NCBI GenBank assembly: GCA_017633675.1
Contig: JAGBOW010000009.1
Span: 1 to 36,196, forward strand
Reading direction: 5' to 3'
From: a bacterium
GTDB lineage: Bacteria; Cyanobacteriota; Vampirovibrionia; Gastranaerophilales; Gastranaerophilaceae
Length of the DNA stretch: 36,196 nucleotides
The notes beneath the pieces were generated by a model. That model did not search any database, had not been told where the DNA came from, and saw nothing but the letters and a program-made list of their open reading frames with translations. Below, piece by piece: positions 1-36,161 of this stretch (the stretch's first letter is position 1; every line of letters starts with the position of its first letter). Made by a program: the position numbers and the translations under genes.

Positions 1-277
1 AGTCTGCAATATTTGATGCGTCACAACGCTTTGCTACTTTTAAATACTTTTGAAGTTCATCTACAAATGCATCAGTTGATGCGTATTGAATGTTCAAAAG
101 TCCATGCGCTCTCATCTGTTCCATTGCTTGAGTAATTTTTTGCGCAATATTTGCCTGACGTTCCGAATTTACTCTTTCCGTAACATTTTCCATAATTGCA
201 GGTAAAGTAATCGCTGAGACAACACCAATAATACCTAGTGTTATTAAAACTTCTGCAAGTGTAAAACCTTTTTTCAT
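1..277 (-). CDS. Type IV prepilin-like / pseudopilin protein, truncated by window edge
   Basis: Reverse-strand translation from the ATG at 277 gives MKKGFTLAEVLITLGIIGVV, then about 70 further residues before the sequence runs off the left edge. This is a type III signal peptide: a short basic leader, cleavage after Gly4, N-methylated Phe1 and Glu5 of the mature protein, then the hydrophobic N-terminal helix. Such proteins are processed by a prepilin peptidase (PilD family) and built into type IV pili or type II-secretion-like pseudopili. An SD (AAAGGTG) precedes the ATG, and a TTGACA-N17-CATAAT promoter lies upstream. The sequence after residue 25 differs from the two prepilins at the other end of the window, so it is a different paralog. 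The C-terminal part cannot be seen. Confidence 0.85.
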   Translation of the reverse strand, partial: MKKGFTLAEVLITLGIIGVVSAITLPAIMENVTERVNSERQANIAQKITQAMEQMRAHGLLNIQYASTDAFVDELQKYLKVAKRCDASNIAD

Positions 278-14194: not shown

Positions 14195-16138
14195 CTACAA
14201 TGATCCTCCGCCACCGTCACGGAAGTAGTCATAGTGTCTTATATCATCATAGTTATTTACATATTCGGCTTCAACATGCTTTTGGAATGTTGTCTGAGGC
14301 GGAGCCACCGGTTCAGCCTTTGTCGCTCTTGAAGCTAACAATGCATCAATATTCGGTGACATTGAAAGTTCAAAGTGGAAACGTCCCATTTTGCTGTATG
14401 GCTCATGATAATTTCTGATTAACGGGAAGCCCCAATATAATCTTGCTGTCAAATCAAGAGGCAGCTGAACTCTTAAGCCCATACCAAGTGATGCTGCAAA
14501 GTAACTTCCGTCCATATAATCTTCGCTTGCTGTCGGGAAAATACCTGCTGTATCTGCAAACACTGCACCTTTAACATATCTGCCAAGAAACGGAATTTTT
14601 TCACCTGTTCTGGGACTTGTAATCGTTCTGGGTAATATCGGGAACATCAATTCACCACTGATAAAGTAACCGTTTTTACCAATCATTAAACCTTCAGAAT
14701 AACCTCTTACGGTAACCAAACCACCGGTTTGCATCTGATCCAAATACGGAATTTGTTTATCACCGGGAACTATCTGATAATTACTTCTCAATTGTCCGAT
14801 AATACCATGAGAAAAATCATGCAATCTTACGACACTACCGCTGTATTTAAAATAATTATTATCCCTGTCGCTGTTAAATATAGGGAATGAATAATATGCA
14901 CTCTGATTTAAGTACCAAATACCGTATCTGGTATCTTTTCTTGCCTGTAACGCTACCTCTGCCGAAGTAATGTTATCAATTGTATCTACAAGATTATAAT
15001 CAAATCCTTTTAAATCCATCATTGTATGAGCACGTTTATAATTTAAAGCCGCATACGATTTCAATTCAAAGGTCGGTTTTCTGATTAAAGGCTGAGAATA
15101 GTACAATGAATACTGATATCCGTTACTTCTGATATCAAACAAATCAACCAGCGGACCATATTTTACATTTGAAAATGTTGACGAGAACGTAAAACCTACA
15201 CGTCCGTCTTTTTTGTTAACAGGGAAATTATAATCCGCAAACGGGCTTTGAGCACCTTTTGAGAAATATGAACCGATTGACAGCTTATCTCTGTGTCCGA
15301 ATAAACTGTCAGCATAAATCATTGCCCCGCCTCTAAGACTTCCTGTATTATAACGGCCGGCATTATCCATAATACCTACAACATGGAACGGGAAGTTTTC
15401 ATCAGCAACCAATTCAATATCGGTAGTTCCCGGTTTTGTACCGGCTCTTAAATTTGCTGTCAAATCAATACCGTCATTGTATCTGTTGAAATCAAGAATA
15501 TCTTTTTCCAATTCAACGATATCAAACAATTCTCCCTCTTTTTGAGGCATTCTGCTTGTAATATATCCGTCTTTAGTCCATTTATTTTTTTCAACGGTAA
15601 TTGAGCCTATCTTACTTTCTGTTAATGAAATATAAATATTACCGTTTGTAACGGTTTGTTCGGGTAAGAATGCCCTTGCAGTTACAAAACCTTTAGAGGC
15701 ATACATATTATTAATTCTGTCAACTACTGCCTGAATTTCATCAATTGTAACATTTCTTCCTATAATTGGCTGAATTGCACTGTTAATTTCTTCTTTTGTA
15801 AGAATTTCGGAAGGCGCTACCTCTACCGAATTGACGAACACGGCATTCTGAGCTGAATTTTCGACATTACCGCGTTGGAAATAATTTTCAGTTTTGTAGT
15901 TATCAATTACATTATTTGTGTAATTCGGATCTTTATTTCTTTCGTATTTATTGTAGTCAACTTCCCTGCGGCTGTCATCATATTTGTCTTTTATAAAATC
16001 CATATCATGAACCTGATTTCCGTATACAGTGTTTGTATAATCACTGTATAAATCAGCTTTTGCAGGAGTAACTGATGCAGCAAGCGCCAAAAGTAATACT
16101 GCGCTCAAAACATTTGTTTTCAAATTAATCTTTTTCAT
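14195..16138 (-). CDS. TpsB/ShlB-FhaC family outer-membrane pore (two-partner secretion type), orphan
   Basis: A 647-residue outer-membrane protein. Residues 1-28 are a Sec signal peptide ending TPAKA. Residues 29-95 are an Asp/Asn/Tyr-rich linker with no recognised fold. Two POTRA domains follow: FVNSVEVAPSEILTKEEINS...ITVE (about 100-175) and one from about 176 to 250. After that come the beta-barrel strands, including the family tetrad VRGY in GLVTVRGYSEGL near residue 480. The last clear strand is MGRFHFELSMSP near 593, and a tail of about 50 residues follows (AEYVNNYDDIRHYDYFRDGGGGSL), which is unusual because outer-membrane barrels normally end at an aromatic residue. TpsB pores export a large TpsA adhesin; none lies nearby. 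SD AAAGGGTG. Promoter at 16162-16190. Confidence 0.85.
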   Translation of the reverse strand: MKKINLKTNVLSAVLLLALAASVTPAKADLYSDYTNTVYGNQVHDMDFIKDKYDDSRREVDYNKYERNKDPNYTNNVIDNYKTENYFQRGNVENSAQNAVFVNSVEVAPSEILTKEEINSAIQPIIGRNVTIDEIQAVVDRINNMYASKGFVTARAFLPEQTVTNGNIYISLTESKIGSITVEKNKWTKDGYITSRMPQKEGELFDIVELEKDILDFNRYNDGIDLTANLRAGTKPGTTDIELVADENFPFHVVGIMDNAGRYNTGSLRGGAMIYADSLFGHRDKLSIGSYFSKGAQSPFADYNFPVNKKDGRVGFTFSSTFSNVKYGPLVDLFDIRSNGYQYSLYYSQPLIRKPTFELKSYAALNYKRAHTMMDLKGFDYNLVDTIDNITSAEVALQARKDTRYGIWYLNQSAYYSFPIFNSDRDNNYFKYSGSVVRLHDFSHGIIGQLRSNYQIVPGDKQIPYLDQMQTGGLVTVRGYSEGLMIGKNGYFISGELMFPILPRTITSPRTGEKIPFLGRYVKGAVFADTAGIFPTASEDYMDGSYFAASLGMGLRVQLPLDLTARLYWGFPLIRNYHEPYSKMGRFHFELSMSPNIDALLASRATKAEPVAPPQTTFQKHVEAEYVNNYDDIRHYDYFRDGGGGSL

Positions 16139-30016: not shown

Positions 30017-33000
30017 CTATTTCACCCATCTGAAACTTTTCACATAACCCGTTCCGTTGATATCACCGTTAATTTCCGCCTCAAAGATTCTGTAGATATC
30101 GGTTGCATTATTTATGTTCGGAATTTTGGAGATATTTTCTTCCAGCAAAAGTTTTTCATTTGAATCATTTACACCGGGAATAGTATTAAACAGGGTATTC
30201 AGAGATGCATTTTTTATTTTTCCGAATACTGATGTTATATTCTTTGAAAGACTTCCTAACACTTTCATATCGGCAACAGAAGATGATATGTTATAACTTC
30301 CCGTCATATACATATTCAAATCATGCCCTTTTGAATAAACATTAATTTTATCCGCTACACCCTGTGAAATATGTATATCACCCGATATGCTTTCAAATTC
30401 ACCCGTTTTAAGAGGTGTAACCAAATCAACCAAACCGTTTATGGAAAGTCCCGTTATTCCGCTTCTCAATAAATTTCCTGCTTTCAAAAGATATTCCAAA
30501 GAGCCGAGTTTTGGCATTTTACCATCTGCGACATTAAATTTTCCTTCTCCCGACAATGTTTTAAAGCACTTATCATCTGCAAAGCCATCACATGACAGGT
30601 CAAAATTACCGCTGACAGAGCCGTAAACCTGACCTTTCAAATCAAACAAAGCCTCAGACATTATTAATGCATTGGCATCTTTAAGGTTTATGGAAAGTTT
30701 TAAATCATTTTTCAATATATTACTTTTAACAGAACCCCAGACAAGTCCTTCTGCAATATTGAACTTAAATTCTTCAATATTGGCAATGGCTTTTTCGGAT
30801 AATTTTAATTTCGCAAAGAAATTTGTCGCATCAATATTTCTTACCTGAATTTTATCTGCCTGAACCTGAGCATTTTTTATTATTAATTGAGAAATATCAA
30901 ACGGAACACTCGGCTCATCTGTTTTTACATTCAGAACCCTTGCCGCTTCAGCCTCAATATCCCTGATTGTATCATCTATTTTATTAATATTTAAATCTGC
31001 CATTTTTATTTGAATATTTTCAATAACATAAGGCGGAACAAACTTATTCTTTACAACGGCATTAATATCAACATCATTATCGGCAACCTTTCCCCTGCTT
31101 GATACAAAAACCTTATCAGGCTTAAAATCTAAATTTATATCTTTGATTGTTGAATCAAAAAACGGGATATCAATACTTGTAATATCAAGTTTTCCGATAA
31201 TTTTAGGATTTATGGAAGTTCCGTTCATTATTAAGTCCGAATTAAACACTCCCTGCTTCATAAACGGCTTTCTGAATATTATGTTAAAAATCTTCGCATC
31301 AGTGGGGTTTTTTGTTTTAATTTTAAAATTATTAAACCCGACATTTCCGTCAGGCAGCAATGTCAACATGCCCGAAGCATTGAGTTGGGTATTTGCAAAC
31401 GGTTTGTTATTCTGGGACATAATAATTTTATCGTACTGCAAGTCATGGAGCATTATTTTATTTCGGGAATATGTTTCGTCAATGGTTATTTTTACGGGGT
31501 TTTGAATATCACCGATAATTGCTCCCATATAATATAAACTGGAATCTTCTTTTACATCTAACGTAGATTTTGCATTAATATTGTTCAAACCTCCAGTAAT
31601 TTTAGAAGAAACAATAACATCTCCTTTAACTTTTATCGGATAAATTGATTTTTGATTAAAAAATTGATCAAAAAAATCTTGTGCCAATTTTAAATTTAAA
31701 TACATATTTAAATTCGGATTTTTATATATGTTATGAATTTTTCCGTTTGCAAATACGGGCATTTGCCCGATTTGAGCGGTAATTTTATTTAAATTCAAAG
31801 TAGAATTTTGCAGTAAAACATTTCCGTTTTTCAGGATAATTTTTGTATCTGTCGGTTTATATAAAACGACTATATTATCAAGAACGGTATATACATTGTA
31901 ATTTGAATTTTTTGCCCGCAAACTTATATCGGTTGTTCCGTTTATTATTTCAAAATCTTTAAGTTGCTCTAACAAATCATTTGGTAGCAATTTCTGAATA
32001 TTTGGATTATTAATAACACTTAAATCAAAATCATTAAATTTACCATAACCGTCAATTAACGGAAATTTTCCGAATATATCAGAGGCATTTATGCTTAAAT
32101 TGTACGGTTTTCCGTTAAAAGTTCCTCTTAAAGGAGAAAGTCTGAAATTCGAATTTTCAAGCAAAAAATCACTGCCATTCACAATAACGGCACTTTTTGC
32201 ACCTTTATTCGGATATATTTTCCCTTTTGTATAAATTTTGTTATACTCTATATCATCAATTTTTCCGATATATTTTAAGAAAAACGAAGTATTAATTGTA
32301 CTCAAATCCTTTTCATACGGAAGTTTCAGAGATAGCATTTTCAAACCGTCACCGATATTAAACTTGTTTGAAACAACTTTCAGATTACAAACATTATTTT
32401 TTATTTTTCCGTTTATACTTACGATTGAATTATAAATATTTGATTTTAATGCTAAATCGGCATCAGCATTGTTAAATCCGATAAGCCCTTTTATGTTTGC
32501 AATTTTCATGCCGTTAATTTTTATTTCATTTGACAATAATTCAAGCGAACCTTTTGCAAAAAAATTTTTGTTGAATACGATATCGTTCGGATCCTGAACC
32601 TGACCATGCAGATTTATTTTAACGTTTGCCAAGCCTGACACAGCCTCAATCGGTTTAATCAGCTCACGAATATCTTTAAGCATCGGAGAAGTCTGAACGG
32701 CATTGAAAAGCTTTCCCAAATCCTGATATGACGAAATAACATCAAAGTTTAAAACTCCGTACAAATTGCAGGAACCTTTAATAGAAACAGGTTTTCCGTT
32801 CAAAGTTGCTGTTTTACTTTCAAACCAAGTATTTTGATTATTGAATTTCAAAACACCCGAGCCGTTATGAATTTCCATATTATGAATATCCAAAAATGAT
32901 ACAACGGCATCATTAAACCAAAATTCACCCCACGCATGCGGGTTTTGTTGTGTCCCCGTAACTCTTAAGTTTATTCCTCCCTGTCCCCTGATATCCATAA

Positions 33001-34459
33001 TAGGAACCGGTCCTAATTCAAAATGTAAAATTTTATGCAAAGGATTCAGGACAATTTGCGCTGTTTTTAAATCAACATTTTCCGTACTTGTAATATGTAA
33101 ATCCGCCGGATGGTCTTTTTGTATAATATCAATAGGCCCTTTCACCCATACGGTTTGTGTCGGACTTGTCGGAACGGTAACATCAAGGTTAAACTTATCT
33201 CCGACAAAGTCTAAAAGAATATTCGCTTTTTTTGCGTTTGGAATTTCTCTTACCATATAAGCATTTTTTATAAAAACTTTTCCGAACACCTTAGGGAAAT
33301 CCGCTTTCCCCTTAACTTCCAAATTAGCCCACACATCACCCCAGAAACCTGCTTTTTTAATTAAATAAAAATCCATATCCGGTGATAAATCATGTACGGG
33401 CGGGAGTAAACAGACAAATTTTTCTGCTTTGGAATTATTTATACCGATTTTCAAATCAAGATTTGGTAATCTGGAAGATAAATTCGTTATTTTTCCGTGT
33501 GAAAAAGCATTTATACCGTTTCCTTTTATTCTTAAATCATTAATTTTTACACCGTTTTTTACGGTCAATAATTCGGAGGTTAAAGTCAGTTCATCTTTAA
33601 AATAAATTGATTCGGAAAGCTGCTCTTTGTATATTCCCAAGTTTTTGACATTTGAATTTATTTTAATTATTTTCTGTTTATCCGAAGATTTTACCGTAAT
33701 TGCATCTGCATTTATAATTCCCGACAAATACTTAATTTCATTCTTTGATATTGATTTAACCAAAGATGAAAAATCTCCCAAATCAAGATTATTTATATTG
33801 CCTGACAATTCAAAATTTCCTTTTGAAATTTTATCAAAAGGCAAAGCCGAATTTAAATTTAATTCAAATTTCGAATTTTTATTATCGGACGAAATGCCTG
33901 CAGTTGTTGCAAGTGCAATATGTTTATTATTTTTGAATTCCGAAATTGTTAATTGACCGCCGTCAAACACTGTTTTTTTATTTTGAGTTTTATCATCAAA
34001 GTATATGTTATAATCATCAACCTGCAAATTTATTTTATTCAGCTTAAAGTCGGATTGCGGAGCATTTTCAAGACTGTATTGCCCTAATTTCAATTCTTTA
34101 TCATATACAAGATTGACATCAATTTTACCTGCATAAAAATCTTTTATTTCAATATTTTTGAATATCAATGGAAAAAGTTTTATCTTAAATTTTATATTAT
34201 CAGCATTTAATGCTTCAGTATTATCATCATTTAAAATTTTAAAATTGTCGGTTGATAATATAACCGAAGGCACAATTCCCATATTAAGATTAGGGTTTTT
34301 GAGAGATATTTTATAGCCGGTTTCTTTTAATACGGTTTGTTCAATTAAAGAGGTTTTTTCCGTCAAATTAACAATAGCAGGAACATTCAGATAAACACCG
34401 TACAAAAGTGTAAATACCAAAATAAATCCTAATATAAATATTTTTAAATTCCTGCCCAC
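30017..34459 (-). CDS. AsmA/TamB-like giant envelope protein (bridge-type lipid transport family)
   Basis: 1480 residues from a GTG at 34459, reading MGRNLKIFILGFILVFTLLYG. A single N-terminal membrane anchor is followed by an AsmA-like start (EQTVLKETGYKISLKNPNLN...VILSTDNFKI). A very long run of beta-strand repeats follows, with recurrent motifs such as VSFLDIHNMEIHNGSG, LNGKPVSIKG and GNVLLQNSTLNLNKI. The C-terminal AsmA_2/DUF3971-like segment SGEGKFNVADGKMPKLGSLEYL...KTGEFESISGDIHISQG ends it. Such proteins form grooved beta-taco rods that carry phospholipids across the periplasm. Proteins annotated AsmA, TamB or YhdP share this layout, and I cannot separate them. A TTG 18 bases earlier opens the same frame. 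TATAAT sits six bases before the GTG. Confidence 0.8.
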   Translation of the reverse strand: MGRNLKIFILGFILVFTLLYGVYLNVPAIVNLTEKTSLIEQTVLKETGYKISLKNPNLNMGIVPSVILSTDNFKILNDDNTEALNADNIKFKIKLFPLIFKNIEIKDFYAGKIDVNLVYDKELKLGQYSLENAPQSDFKLNKINLQVDDYNIYFDDKTQNKKTVFDGGQLTISEFKNNKHIALATTAGISSDNKNSKFELNLNSALPFDKISKGNFELSGNINNLDLGDFSSLVKSISKNEIKYLSGIINADAITVKSSDKQKIIKINSNVKNLGIYKEQLSESIYFKDELTLTSELLTVKNGVKINDLRIKGNGINAFSHGKITNLSSRLPNLDLKIGINNSKAEKFVCLLPPVHDLSPDMDFYLIKKAGFWGDVWANLEVKGKADFPKVFGKVFIKNAYMVREIPNAKKANILLDFVGDKFNLDVTVPTSPTQTVWVKGPIDIIQKDHPADLHITSTENVDLKTAQIVLNPLHKILHFELGPVPIMDIRGQGGINLRVTGTQQNPHAWGEFWFNDAVVSFLDIHNMEIHNGSGVLKFNNQNTWFESKTATLNGKPVSIKGSCNLYGVLNFDVISSYQDLGKLFNAVQTSPMLKDIRELIKPIEAVSGLANVKINLHGQVQDPNDIVFNKNFFAKGSLELLSNEIKINGMKIANIKGLIGFNNADADLALKSNIYNSIVSINGKIKNNVCNLKVVSNKFNIGDGLKMLSLKLPYEKDLSTINTSFFLKYIGKIDDIEYNKIYTKGKIYPNKGAKSAVIVNGSDFLLENSNFRLSPLRGTFNGKPYNLSINASDIFGKFPLIDGYGKFNDFDLSVINNPNIQKLLPNDLLEQLKDFEIINGTTDISLRAKNSNYNVYTVLDNIVVLYKPTDTKIILKNGNVLLQNSTLNLNKITAQIGQMPVFANGKIHNIYKNPNLNMYLNLKLAQDFFDQFFNQKSIYPIKVKGDVIVSSKITGGLNNINAKSTLDVKEDSSLYYMGAIIGDIQNPVKITIDETYSRNKIMLHDLQYDKIIMSQNNKPFANTQLNASGMLTLLPDGNVGFNNFKIKTKNPTDAKIFNIIFRKPFMKQGVFNSDLIMNGTSINPKIIGKLDITSIDIPFFDSTIKDINLDFKPDKVFVSSRGKVADNDVDINAVVKNKFVPPYVIENIQIKMADLNINKIDDTIRDIEAEAARVLNVKTDEPSVPFDISQLIIKNAQVQADKIQVRNIDATNFFAKLKLSEKAIANIEEFKFNIAEGLVWGSVKSNILKNDLKLSINLKDANALIMSEALFDLKGQVYGSVSGNFDLSCDGFADDKCFKTLSGEGKFNVADGKMPKLGSLEYLLKAGNLLRSGITGLSINGLVDLVTPLKTGEFESISGDIHISQGVADKINVYSKGHDLNMYMTGSYNISSSVADMKVLGSLSKNITSVFGKIKNASLNTLFNTIPGVNDSNEKLLLEENISKIPNINNATDIYRIFEAEINGDINGTGYVKSFRWVK

Positions 34460-34465
34460 AAAAGT

Positions 34466-34496
34466 ATTATACAACAAAAATCATGACACCTGACAA
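34466..34496 (-). promoter_or_regulatory. Promoter of the AsmA/TamB-like gene, predicting a leaderless mRNA
   Basis: TTGTCA (34491-34496) and TATAAT (34466-34471) on the minus strand, 19-base spacer (long), then ACTTTT and the GTG at 34459. No SD. The gap between -10 and start is again six bases. Confidence 0.55.
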
Positions 34497-34552: not shown

Positions 34553-34584
34553 AACACAAAAGACGAGCCATTTTATGGCTCGTC
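34553..34584 (-). terminator. Intrinsic terminator of prepilin gene 1
   Basis: A 9-bp perfect stem GACGAGCCA-TAAAA-TGGCTCGTC on the minus strand is followed by TTTTGTGTTT. It is 25 bases past the prepilin stop at 34609. Confidence 0.9.
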
Positions 34585-34608
34585 CTTAATTTGCTATGAA
34601 TTTTCTGA

Positions 34609-35166
34609 TTATTTGTTATACAGTACTTGTTTTGCAATCTCAGTTGCAGGAAGTATTGTTTGATCATAGTATACTACAGGATATACGTCTGTCGGGTTAC
34701 TTGCATTAGTAGTAACTTTGTTAGGTCCTTTTTGACCGTTTACGTCAATAATACCTTTACATTGATCACTAAGTTTACATTCATCATCACCTGCCGGGAA
34801 TTCAAACATTGAACCGTCATTAAAGAACAAAGAAACATTCTCAGAAGCAGTATTACTTAAGTTACTAGAACCATTTATAGCAAGTATTTCATAGCCTCTG
34901 GTAGCTGAAGTATCTACCTTATTAACAACATTCATACGACCGGGCAAAATGTTTTCTGCAGAATTATCTGCAAAACTCTGGTCATCTAATGCAACATTCA
35001 ATGTTACACCTTGTGAAATTGCTGATAAAGCTTTCTTGTAAGCTGCTTTGTACTGTGCACCGTTTGTTTGGTTAATCAATGTCGGCATGGTCATTGCTGC
35101 TACAACACCGATAATACCTAAAGTGATTAACACTTCTGCCAAAGTAAAACCTGTTTTTTTCATCAT
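34609..35166 (-). CDS. Type IV prepilin-like protein, tandem copy 1
   Basis: 185 residues from MMKKTGFTLAEVLITLGIIG: class III signal peptide, Phe and Glu in the mature positions 1 and 5, then the hydrophobic helix. The first 62 residues are nearly identical to copy 2, the central part differs (SATRGYEILAINGSSNLSNT) and the end PTDVYPVVYYDQTILP...QVLYNK is shared. A Cys pair (ECKLSDQC) precedes IDVNGQKGPN, the conserved loop. It is probably a minor pilin or pseudopilin. SD AAAGGTG. Promoter 35277-35305, leader about 100 bases. Confidence 0.9.
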   Translation of the reverse strand: MMKKTGFTLAEVLITLGIIGVVAAMTMPTLINQTNGAQYKAAYKKALSAISQGVTLNVALDDQSFADNSAENILPGRMNVVNKVDTSATRGYEILAINGSSNLSNTASENVSLFFNDGSMFEFPAGDDECKLSDQCKGIIDVNGQKGPNKVTTNASNPTDVYPVVYYDQTILPATEIAKQVLYNK

Positions 35167-35276
35167 AATCTTTTCACCTTTCTTTTTATTCTATACTCTT
35201 GATTTTTCAAAAGCATTTGTACCTAAATATATAAACTGCATAAACGTTTTTAAAAAATCATCCTCTATATAATTCA

Positions 35277-35305
35277 ATTCTAAAAGATTATTTAAATTTT
35301 GTCAA
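35277..35305 (-). promoter_or_regulatory. Promoter of prepilin gene 1
   Basis: TTGACA (35300-35305), 17 bases, TAGAAT (35277-35282). The same boxes and spacing recur for copy 2. The predicted mRNA leader is about 100 bases. Confidence 0.8.
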
Positions 35306-35334
35306 GTATTTTAAGAAAAATATTAATTATTATT

Positions 35335-35356
35335 AACTAATTCTTAAGGATTAGTT
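35335..35356. repeat. 22-bp palindrome upstream of the prepilin 1 promoter
   Basis: AACTAAT...CTTAAG...ATTAGTT; 10 of 11 base pairs match. It sits 29 bases upstream of the -35 box, between it and the upstream gene's terminator. The same sequence recurs at 36140-36161. Confidence 0.75.
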
Positions 35357-35367
35357 TTGTAAAATAT

Positions 35368-35399
35368 AAAGAATGAGCCCGTTTTCGGACCCATTCTTT
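35368..35399 (-). terminator. Intrinsic terminator of prepilin gene 2
   Basis: Stem AAAGAATG...CATTCTTT extended on the minus-strand RNA by GGGUCCG/CGGGCUC with two G-U pairs, AAAA loop, then TATATTTT. The G-U pairs form only in the minus-strand transcript, which fits the gene direction. Confidence 0.8.
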
Positions 35400-35428
35400 A
35401 TTAATATTAAATAATCTTTGCCAATAAA

Positions 35429-35971
35429 TTATTTGTTATACAATACTTGTCTTGCTGTTTCTGAGTGCGGTAAAATTGTTTGATCATAGTATACTACAGG
35501 ATATACGTCTGTCGGGTTGTCTGCACTTTCTACCATTTTATTTGGTCCTTTAGAACCGTTTACGTCAATAAAACCATAACAAGGACTTTCTAATTTACAC
35601 TCCACATCACCAGTTACGAATTCAAACATAGAACTGTCATTAAAAAATAATGATGTATTACCAGAAGTTCCATTTCCGGATGGAGCATTAGTACCTGTAA
35701 TAGGATAATTTCTAGTTGTAGTGTTATTAACAACATTCATACGGCCAGGCAAAATATTTGCAGCTCCGTTATCAGCAAAACTGATATCATCTAATGCAAC
35801 ATTCAATGTTACACCCTGTGAAATTGCTGACAAAGCTTTCTTGTAAGCTGCTTTGTACTGTGCACCGTTTGTTTGGTTAATCAATGTCGGCATGGTCATT
35901 GCTGCTACAACACCGATAATACCTAAAGTGATTAACACTTCTGCGAGAGTAAAGCCTGTTTTTTTCATCAT
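35429..35971 (-). CDS. Type IV prepilin-like protein, tandem copy 2
   Basis: 180 residues from the first of two ATGs after the SD AAAGGTG. The frame stays open 25 codons upstream to an ATG at 36046, but that lies in the leader and lacks an SD. MMKKTGFTLAEVLITLGIIG and the next 40 residues match copy 1; the middle differs (TTTRNYPITGTNAPSGNGTS), and a Cys pair (ECKLESPC), IDVNGSKGPN and the C-terminal PTDVYPVVYYDQTILP...QVLYNK follow. Same likely role as copy 1, and probably an exchangeable variant. Confidence 0.9.
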   Translation of the reverse strand: MMKKTGFTLAEVLITLGIIGVVAAMTMPTLINQTNGAQYKAAYKKALSAISQGVTLNVALDDISFADNGAANILPGRMNVVNNTTTRNYPITGTNAPSGNGTSGNTSLFFNDSSMFEFVTGDVECKLESPCYGFIDVNGSKGPNKMVESADNPTDVYPVVYYDQTILPHSETARQVLYNK

Positions 35972-36081: not shown

Positions 36082-36110
36082 ATTCTAAAAGATTTTTGAA
36101 ATTATGTCAA
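36082..36110 (-). promoter_or_regulatory. Promoter of prepilin gene 2
   Basis: TTGACA (36105-36110), 17 bases, TAGAAT (36082-36087), identical in boxes and spacing to copy 1. Confidence 0.8.
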
Positions 36111-36139: not shown

Positions 36140-36161
36140 AACTAATTCTTAAGGATTAGTT
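36140..36161. repeat. 22-bp palindrome upstream of the prepilin 2 promoter
   Basis: The same palindrome as at 35335-35356 (805 bases apart), again 29 bases upstream of the -35. It may be a regulator binding site or a recombination junction of the duplication. Confidence 0.75.

Follow-up and report, generated by a model that had tools for sequence, protein, structure and literature searches.

The two tandem prepilin genes at the high end of the window (the whole of contig C95, 36,196 bases) are probably type IV pilin paralogues with their own promoters, in which recombination made the 5' parts nearly identical after the middles had drifted apart. The source genome comprises 1.91 Mb in 147 contigs and is 89% complete; the relatives that bear a name are Candidatus Gastranaerophilales and Melainabacteria assembled from metagenomes. 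The exchange between tandem pilins of this little-studied gut lineage is seen at silent sites, beyond the conservation of the protein. This allows structural constraint and conversion, which are usually lumped together under "constant ends, variable middle", to be separated as two causes.

Layout and silent-site divergence of the tandem pair

The coordinates and gene calls of the earlier note were correct. Both genes are located on the minus strand, and encode proteins of 180 and 185 aa that score above the curated cut-offs (21.2 bits for PF07963 and 16.3 bits for TIGR02532) for the N-terminal prepilin peptidase/methylation motif. PF07963 was matched by 38/40 members of the tandem-pilin family; two of the 40 members are cut at contig starts. 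The ORF finder also returned a longer start for the upstream copy (205 aa); this was rejected because that frame is interrupted by a stop in the downstream copy, and because the RBS precedes the shorter start. A predicted promoter, RBS, and downstream hairpin are present for each copy. The near-palindrome located 5' of each promoter occurs at two places only in the window (4 matches when both strands are counted, against 0.09 expected). The features are summarized in Table 1.

Table 1. Features of the tandem pilin pair in the window, and the poly-G prepilin genes of the source genome and other loci
Feature	Position	Strand	Basis or remark
Upstream prepilin copy (W95_1), 180 aa	35429..35971	-	ORF list; PF07963 26.0 bits, TIGR02532 23.5 bits
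Downstream prepilin copy (W95_2), 185 aa	34609..35166	-	ORF list; PF07963 26.1 bits, TIGR02532 23.5 bits
Near-palindrome CTAATCCTTAAGAATTAG, 5' of the upstream copy's promoter	36142..36159	-	sequence match
Near-palindrome CTAATCCTTAAGAATTAG, 5' of the downstream copy's promoter; start of the shared leader	35337..35354	-	sequence match
Sigma-70-like promoter TTGACA-17-TAGAAT, upstream copy	36082..36110	-	11/12 consensus bases; 139 nt before ATG
Sigma-70-like promoter TTGACA-17-TAGAAT, downstream copy	35277..35305	-	11/12 consensus bases; 139 nt before ATG
Homogenised N-terminal block, upstream copy, codons 1-62	35786..35971	-	62/62 residues and 180/186 nt equal to the other copy
Homogenised N-terminal block, downstream copy, codons 1-62	34981..35166	-	aligned to the upstream copy
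Diverged middle, upstream copy, codons 63-150	35522..35785	-	56/88 aligned residues identical, 89/264 nt differ
Diverged middle, downstream copy, codons 63-155	34702..34980	-	aligned to the upstream copy
C-terminal 30 codons, upstream copy	35432..35521	-	25/30 residues equal to the other copy
C-terminal 30 codons, downstream copy	34612..34701	-	aligned to the upstream copy
Strong intergenic hairpin, likely terminator of the upstream copy	35366..35401	-	-22.1 kcal/mol, z -7.4 vs 200 shuffles
Terminator-like hairpin 3' of the downstream copy	34559..34587	-	sequence
Poly-G prepilin genes	own-genome C5, C24, C53, C61, C73, C89, C106, C114, C116, C128, C130, C143; loci L129-L170

The leaders, taken from the near-palindrome to the ATG, differ at 8/187 nt, and the first 62 residues are the same in both proteins (6/186 nt differ), which bears out the near identity that the earlier note had described for this part. 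The note had also called the last 30 residues almost identical; however, only 25/30 are (17/90 nt differ), with 9/13 at the very end. The middles do diverge by substitution and by length change, as proposed (56/88 aligned residues identical, 5 gap columns), but they measure 88 and 93 residues instead of about 75, and the divergence within them is itself patchy.

Synonymous differences between the copies number 3.0/40.8 sites in the N-terminal block, compared to 28.2/46.4 in the middle (Fisher p = 1e-7). The C-terminal block has 7.5/21.9, and is thus partially homogenised. In a likelihood-ratio scan of codons for identical residues, a run of 35 codons contained no differences, against 26/101 elsewhere (p = 0.020, by a permutation test whose weakness is that it treats sites as exchangeable). 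Uniform divergence along the genes, which would have refuted the earlier note, was not seen.

Purifying selection on the protein preserves residues but not silent sites, yet the N-terminal block is nearly identical at silent sites as well; recombination is therefore needed to account for it. Silent sites in this block are not constrained in general, since the proportion of silent differences there ranges from 0.10 to 0.65 in the other 19 tandem pairs that we compared. The silent distance in the block is 0.06 between the window copies, versus at least 0.32 from the window genes to any other genome. In tracts, the silent sites of the window paralogues are closer to each other than to those of their orthologues, as in concerted evolution. 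Silent and non-coding divergence are both strongly uneven, which supports the gene conversion suggested earlier, or another recombination between the copies. Judged from the nucleotide comparison, gene conversion or unequal exchange homogenised the 5' part of the pair at a time when the middles were already diverged.

Tandem pairs in the genus and alternative explanations

The pilin had matches at E <= 1e-30 in 31/33 genus genomes searched. Readable tandem pairs numbered 20 and came from 19/33 genomes; two are in the source genome, and the rest are in 18 others. The second pair of the source genome belongs to the same pilin family (G000:C63:428-1943, minus strand, locus L003). Silent divergence was significantly uneven (p < 0.05) in 12/20 pairs, where about one was expected; the eight pairs without a significant breakpoint include the one on C63 (p = 0.24). 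The homogenised tract is N-terminal in the window pair and in genomes G003, G008, G012, and G013, and lies outside the N-terminus in G007, G020, G028, and G029. The most diverged silent stretch falls inside the N-terminal block in G011, G017, G028, and G029, being near the start in G011 and G017. The partner copy was the nearest sequence at silent sites in 7/20 pairs for the N-terminal block, in 5/20 for the middle, and in 3/20 and 4/20 for the two C-terminal parts.

The earlier note had spoken of conversion between constant ends; as a rule this found no support, because the position of the tract varies among genomes and 8/20 pairs have no significant breakpoint. Fixed crossover ends were likewise rejected as a design, since different genomes have their tracts in different places. 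As homogenised patches also occur away from the ends, the constant ends of the protein reflect mainly structural constraint, with conversion tracts at varying positions overlaid, and not a fixed design. Conversion would occur anywhere along such pairs; tracts replacing the pilin head would often be lost, while those in the N-terminal helix would be tolerated. Storage in the membrane, cleavage of the prepilin, and packing of the filament all depend on the helix, and purifying selection on it, together with weaker selection on the head, could produce constant ends and a variable middle.

We regard as unlikely, but best placed among the alternatives, a cassette replacement, in which leader and gene would have been duplicated recently and one of the copies would then have acquired a different middle from another pilin locus. 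In the relatives, the promoter is mostly 139-150 from the ATG in the first slot, and 167-185 in 17/18 listed second slots. Both window promoters are at the first-slot position (-139), as if this slot had been duplicated. The extended leader is common to the copies in the window pair only, among the pairs compared; in the 17 further pairs whose upstream sequence is long enough, little of the leader is common to the copies beyond the RBS-proximal part. However, a DNA search of the source genome returned no donor for either middle, only short or weak matches on C63. In addition, the alignment shows both window middles to be without the second cysteine loop found in most relatives, which suggests common descent. 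Because both window leaders are of the first-slot kind, it appears that the second slot either arose by duplication of the first or received the 5' part of the first.

A chimeric assembly, or the collapse of strains in a metagenome-assembled genome, appears improbable. The window contig does end just upstream of the upstream copy, and 18/104 prepilin matches in the source genome are no more than 400 bp away from a contig's low end, so that the assembly seems to break at prepilin repeats. Contig C52 has at its end a GH77 gene, a pilin leader, and 28 pilin codons, and is 97.7% identical to the window end across a 311-bp overlap. Before the ATG, 19/20 informative sites of this fragment agree with the upstream window copy and one matches neither, whereas in the coding part 3/3 agree with the downstream copy. 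By these sites the C52 end is a mosaic of the two window copies, with the switch placed between -25 and +17, which supports recombination between copies; the fragment could come from a variant strain or be a third copy. Tandem pairs of the same family in 18 other genus genomes speak against an artefact of assembly. Both window copies are intact, with distinct middles, and a GH77 gene, also present beside the C52 fragment, is the upstream neighbour in 12/20 pairs. Loci L059, L064, L067, and L077 from relatives have GH77, one pilin, and then a homologue of the large window protein at 30017-34477, which had no Pfam match. Given this gene order and the GH77 neighbours, the window pair most likely sits at a conserved GH77 pilin locus. 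A four-gene array joining C63 and C95 was also considered and rejected, as the low end of C63 holds unrelated sequence.

Recent duplication followed by fast diversifying selection on the pilin head, where length changes concentrate and which is expected from type IV pilus architecture to be surface exposed, is largely refuted and highly implausible, given a middle dS of about 1.07 next to a leader only 4% diverged, and a middle dN/dS of 0.33 in the window pair and of 0.13-0.50 in 8/8 comparisons with middle dS < 0.6. The earlier suggestion of diversifying selection thus found no support, and across all pairs below this dS limit the ratios speak against it as the main cause; these averages are compatible with single positively selected sites in the middle. 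Recombination between the paralogues is the explanation that we consider probable.

Pilus machine and prepilin repertoire

PilB/PilT-class ATPases (PF00437) were detected in 33/33 genus genomes searched, the source genome included, as was the secretin (PF00263), of which the source genome has one. A T2SSF platform protein is encoded in the window at 745-1971. For the pilin fold, in which a beta-sheet head comes after a long N-terminal helix, the predicted structure is a poor model (pLDDT 64.4). A Foldseek search with it gave no match at E <= 0.001, only chance matches; ranks 1-4 in VIA-align were all type IV pilins, with weak Z values of 3.2-3.8. Both window proteins probably serve the one secretin-based pilus machine of the genome as filament subunits, either interchangeably or by co-assembly, and may be major pilins. 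Type IV pilus genes have been described in a termite-gut melainabacterium (PMC5877343). The window also contains, at 14195-16138 on the minus strand, a gene for a two-partner secretion transporter of the ShlB/FhaC type with POTRA domains.

With its single secretin, the source genome (1.9 Mb) has 104 matches to the window pilin at E <= 0.01, mostly through the N-terminal part only. A first look with TIGR02532 returned 9-201 candidates in 22 genus genomes, versus at most 22 outside the family in the phylum sample; these counts are loose, 28 candidates per genome having been scored.

A 37-bp match located 5' of the window promoters pointed to prepilin genes that contain a poly-G tract (listed in Table 1). 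Their layout is an RBS, an ATG, about 10 codons, G7-G13, a linker of mostly 100 to 135 nt, and the prepilin motif. There are 19 tracts of G7 or longer in the source genome, 12 of them with the conserved start module. Downstream sequence is visible for eight of these, and in 8/8 a 3n+2 frame is needed to connect the RBS-proximal ATG to the prepilin domain, although two of them are cut off by the contig end at or within the prepilin motif, and the motif on C24 shows a slight change. The assembled tract has a 3n+2 length in 0/8 loci.

The pattern of G7, 105-135 bases, and a prepilin motif was present in 36/191 family genomes and in 34/291 phylum genomes, all 34 of which belong to the family; the reversed pattern, used as a control, was present in 0 genomes. 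Of 30 loci, each from a different genome, 28 have a linker that is stop-free in the prepilin frame, compared to 1306/6000 random windows, and 26 have one phase that brings an RBS-like sequence and its start codon into frame. The assembled length corresponds to the on phase in 4/26 loci, although poly-G lengths come from assembled metagenomes and are hence uncertain. From these patterns the tracts look like translational phase variation of prepilins. A promoter-like TTGNC..TATAAT is located in the linker between poly-G and motif in 5/15 plus-strand loci (L142, L147, L149, L159, and L166). The tract may act on translation, transcription, or both.

We looked for a poly-G tract in the window pair itself and found none. 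The near-palindrome and AT-rich tail 5' of both pilin promoters (37 bp, 97%) recur upstream of three poly-G leaders (L126-L128), and the near-palindrome may be a site for a shared regulator. At the other end of the contig, a prepilin gene (2-277, minus strand) is cut by the contig end; its N-terminal part is like that of the poly-G prepilins. A literature search on phase variation in Gastranaerophilales returned no paper, and the corresponding search on Melainabacteria returned one on flagellins.

The prepilins whose frame is set by poly-G are more surprising than the mosaic in the window. The context may matter more than the pair: about 100 prepilin-like genes are devoted to one secretin-based machine, and some of them, restricted to this lineage, look phase variable. 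We tentatively suggest, as a possibility about which we have more doubt than confidence, a surface-variation system of two layers in gut Gastranaerophilales. The tandem pilins would form a constantly expressed layer diversified by recombination, and the large prepilin repertoire, turned on and off in part by slippage at the poly-G tract of the short start module, would form the second; the two would share the palindrome and the one pilus machine.

Comparison with known systems

Legionella pilA1 and pilA2 are tandem paralogous type IV pilins (PMC13170364). As in Legionella, two related prepilin genes occur at one locus; the window pair differs in the silent-site evidence for exchange and in the genus-wide set of 20 pairs to which it belongs.

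Pilin antigenic variation has been described for pilE/pilS of Neisseria (PMC4023411). The window pair resembles this system in its constant N-terminal part, its variable head, and the recombination tracts between copies. In Neisseria a single gene is expressed, the silent copies are partial and have no promoter, and variants arise within a clone. In contrast, both window copies are full length, and each has a predicted promoter, RBS, and start codon. The DNA search of the source genome found no silent or partial copies of the middle; the C63 genes gave weak matches only. Because both copies are complete with predicted promoters and the search returned no silent copy of the middle, the pair, as far as its sequence indicates, is not a silent-copy system of the Neisseria type.

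Ectopic gene conversion is known from the concerted evolution of tandem bacterial genes. The patchy silent-site divergence between the tandem pilin paralogues is like that process; however, the tracts shift their place among genomes, and in the window pair the middle is left out. In its behaviour the window pair resembles tandem pilin paralogues that undergo ectopic gene conversion, a familiar behaviour of genes that is seen here in a group with little-studied pili.
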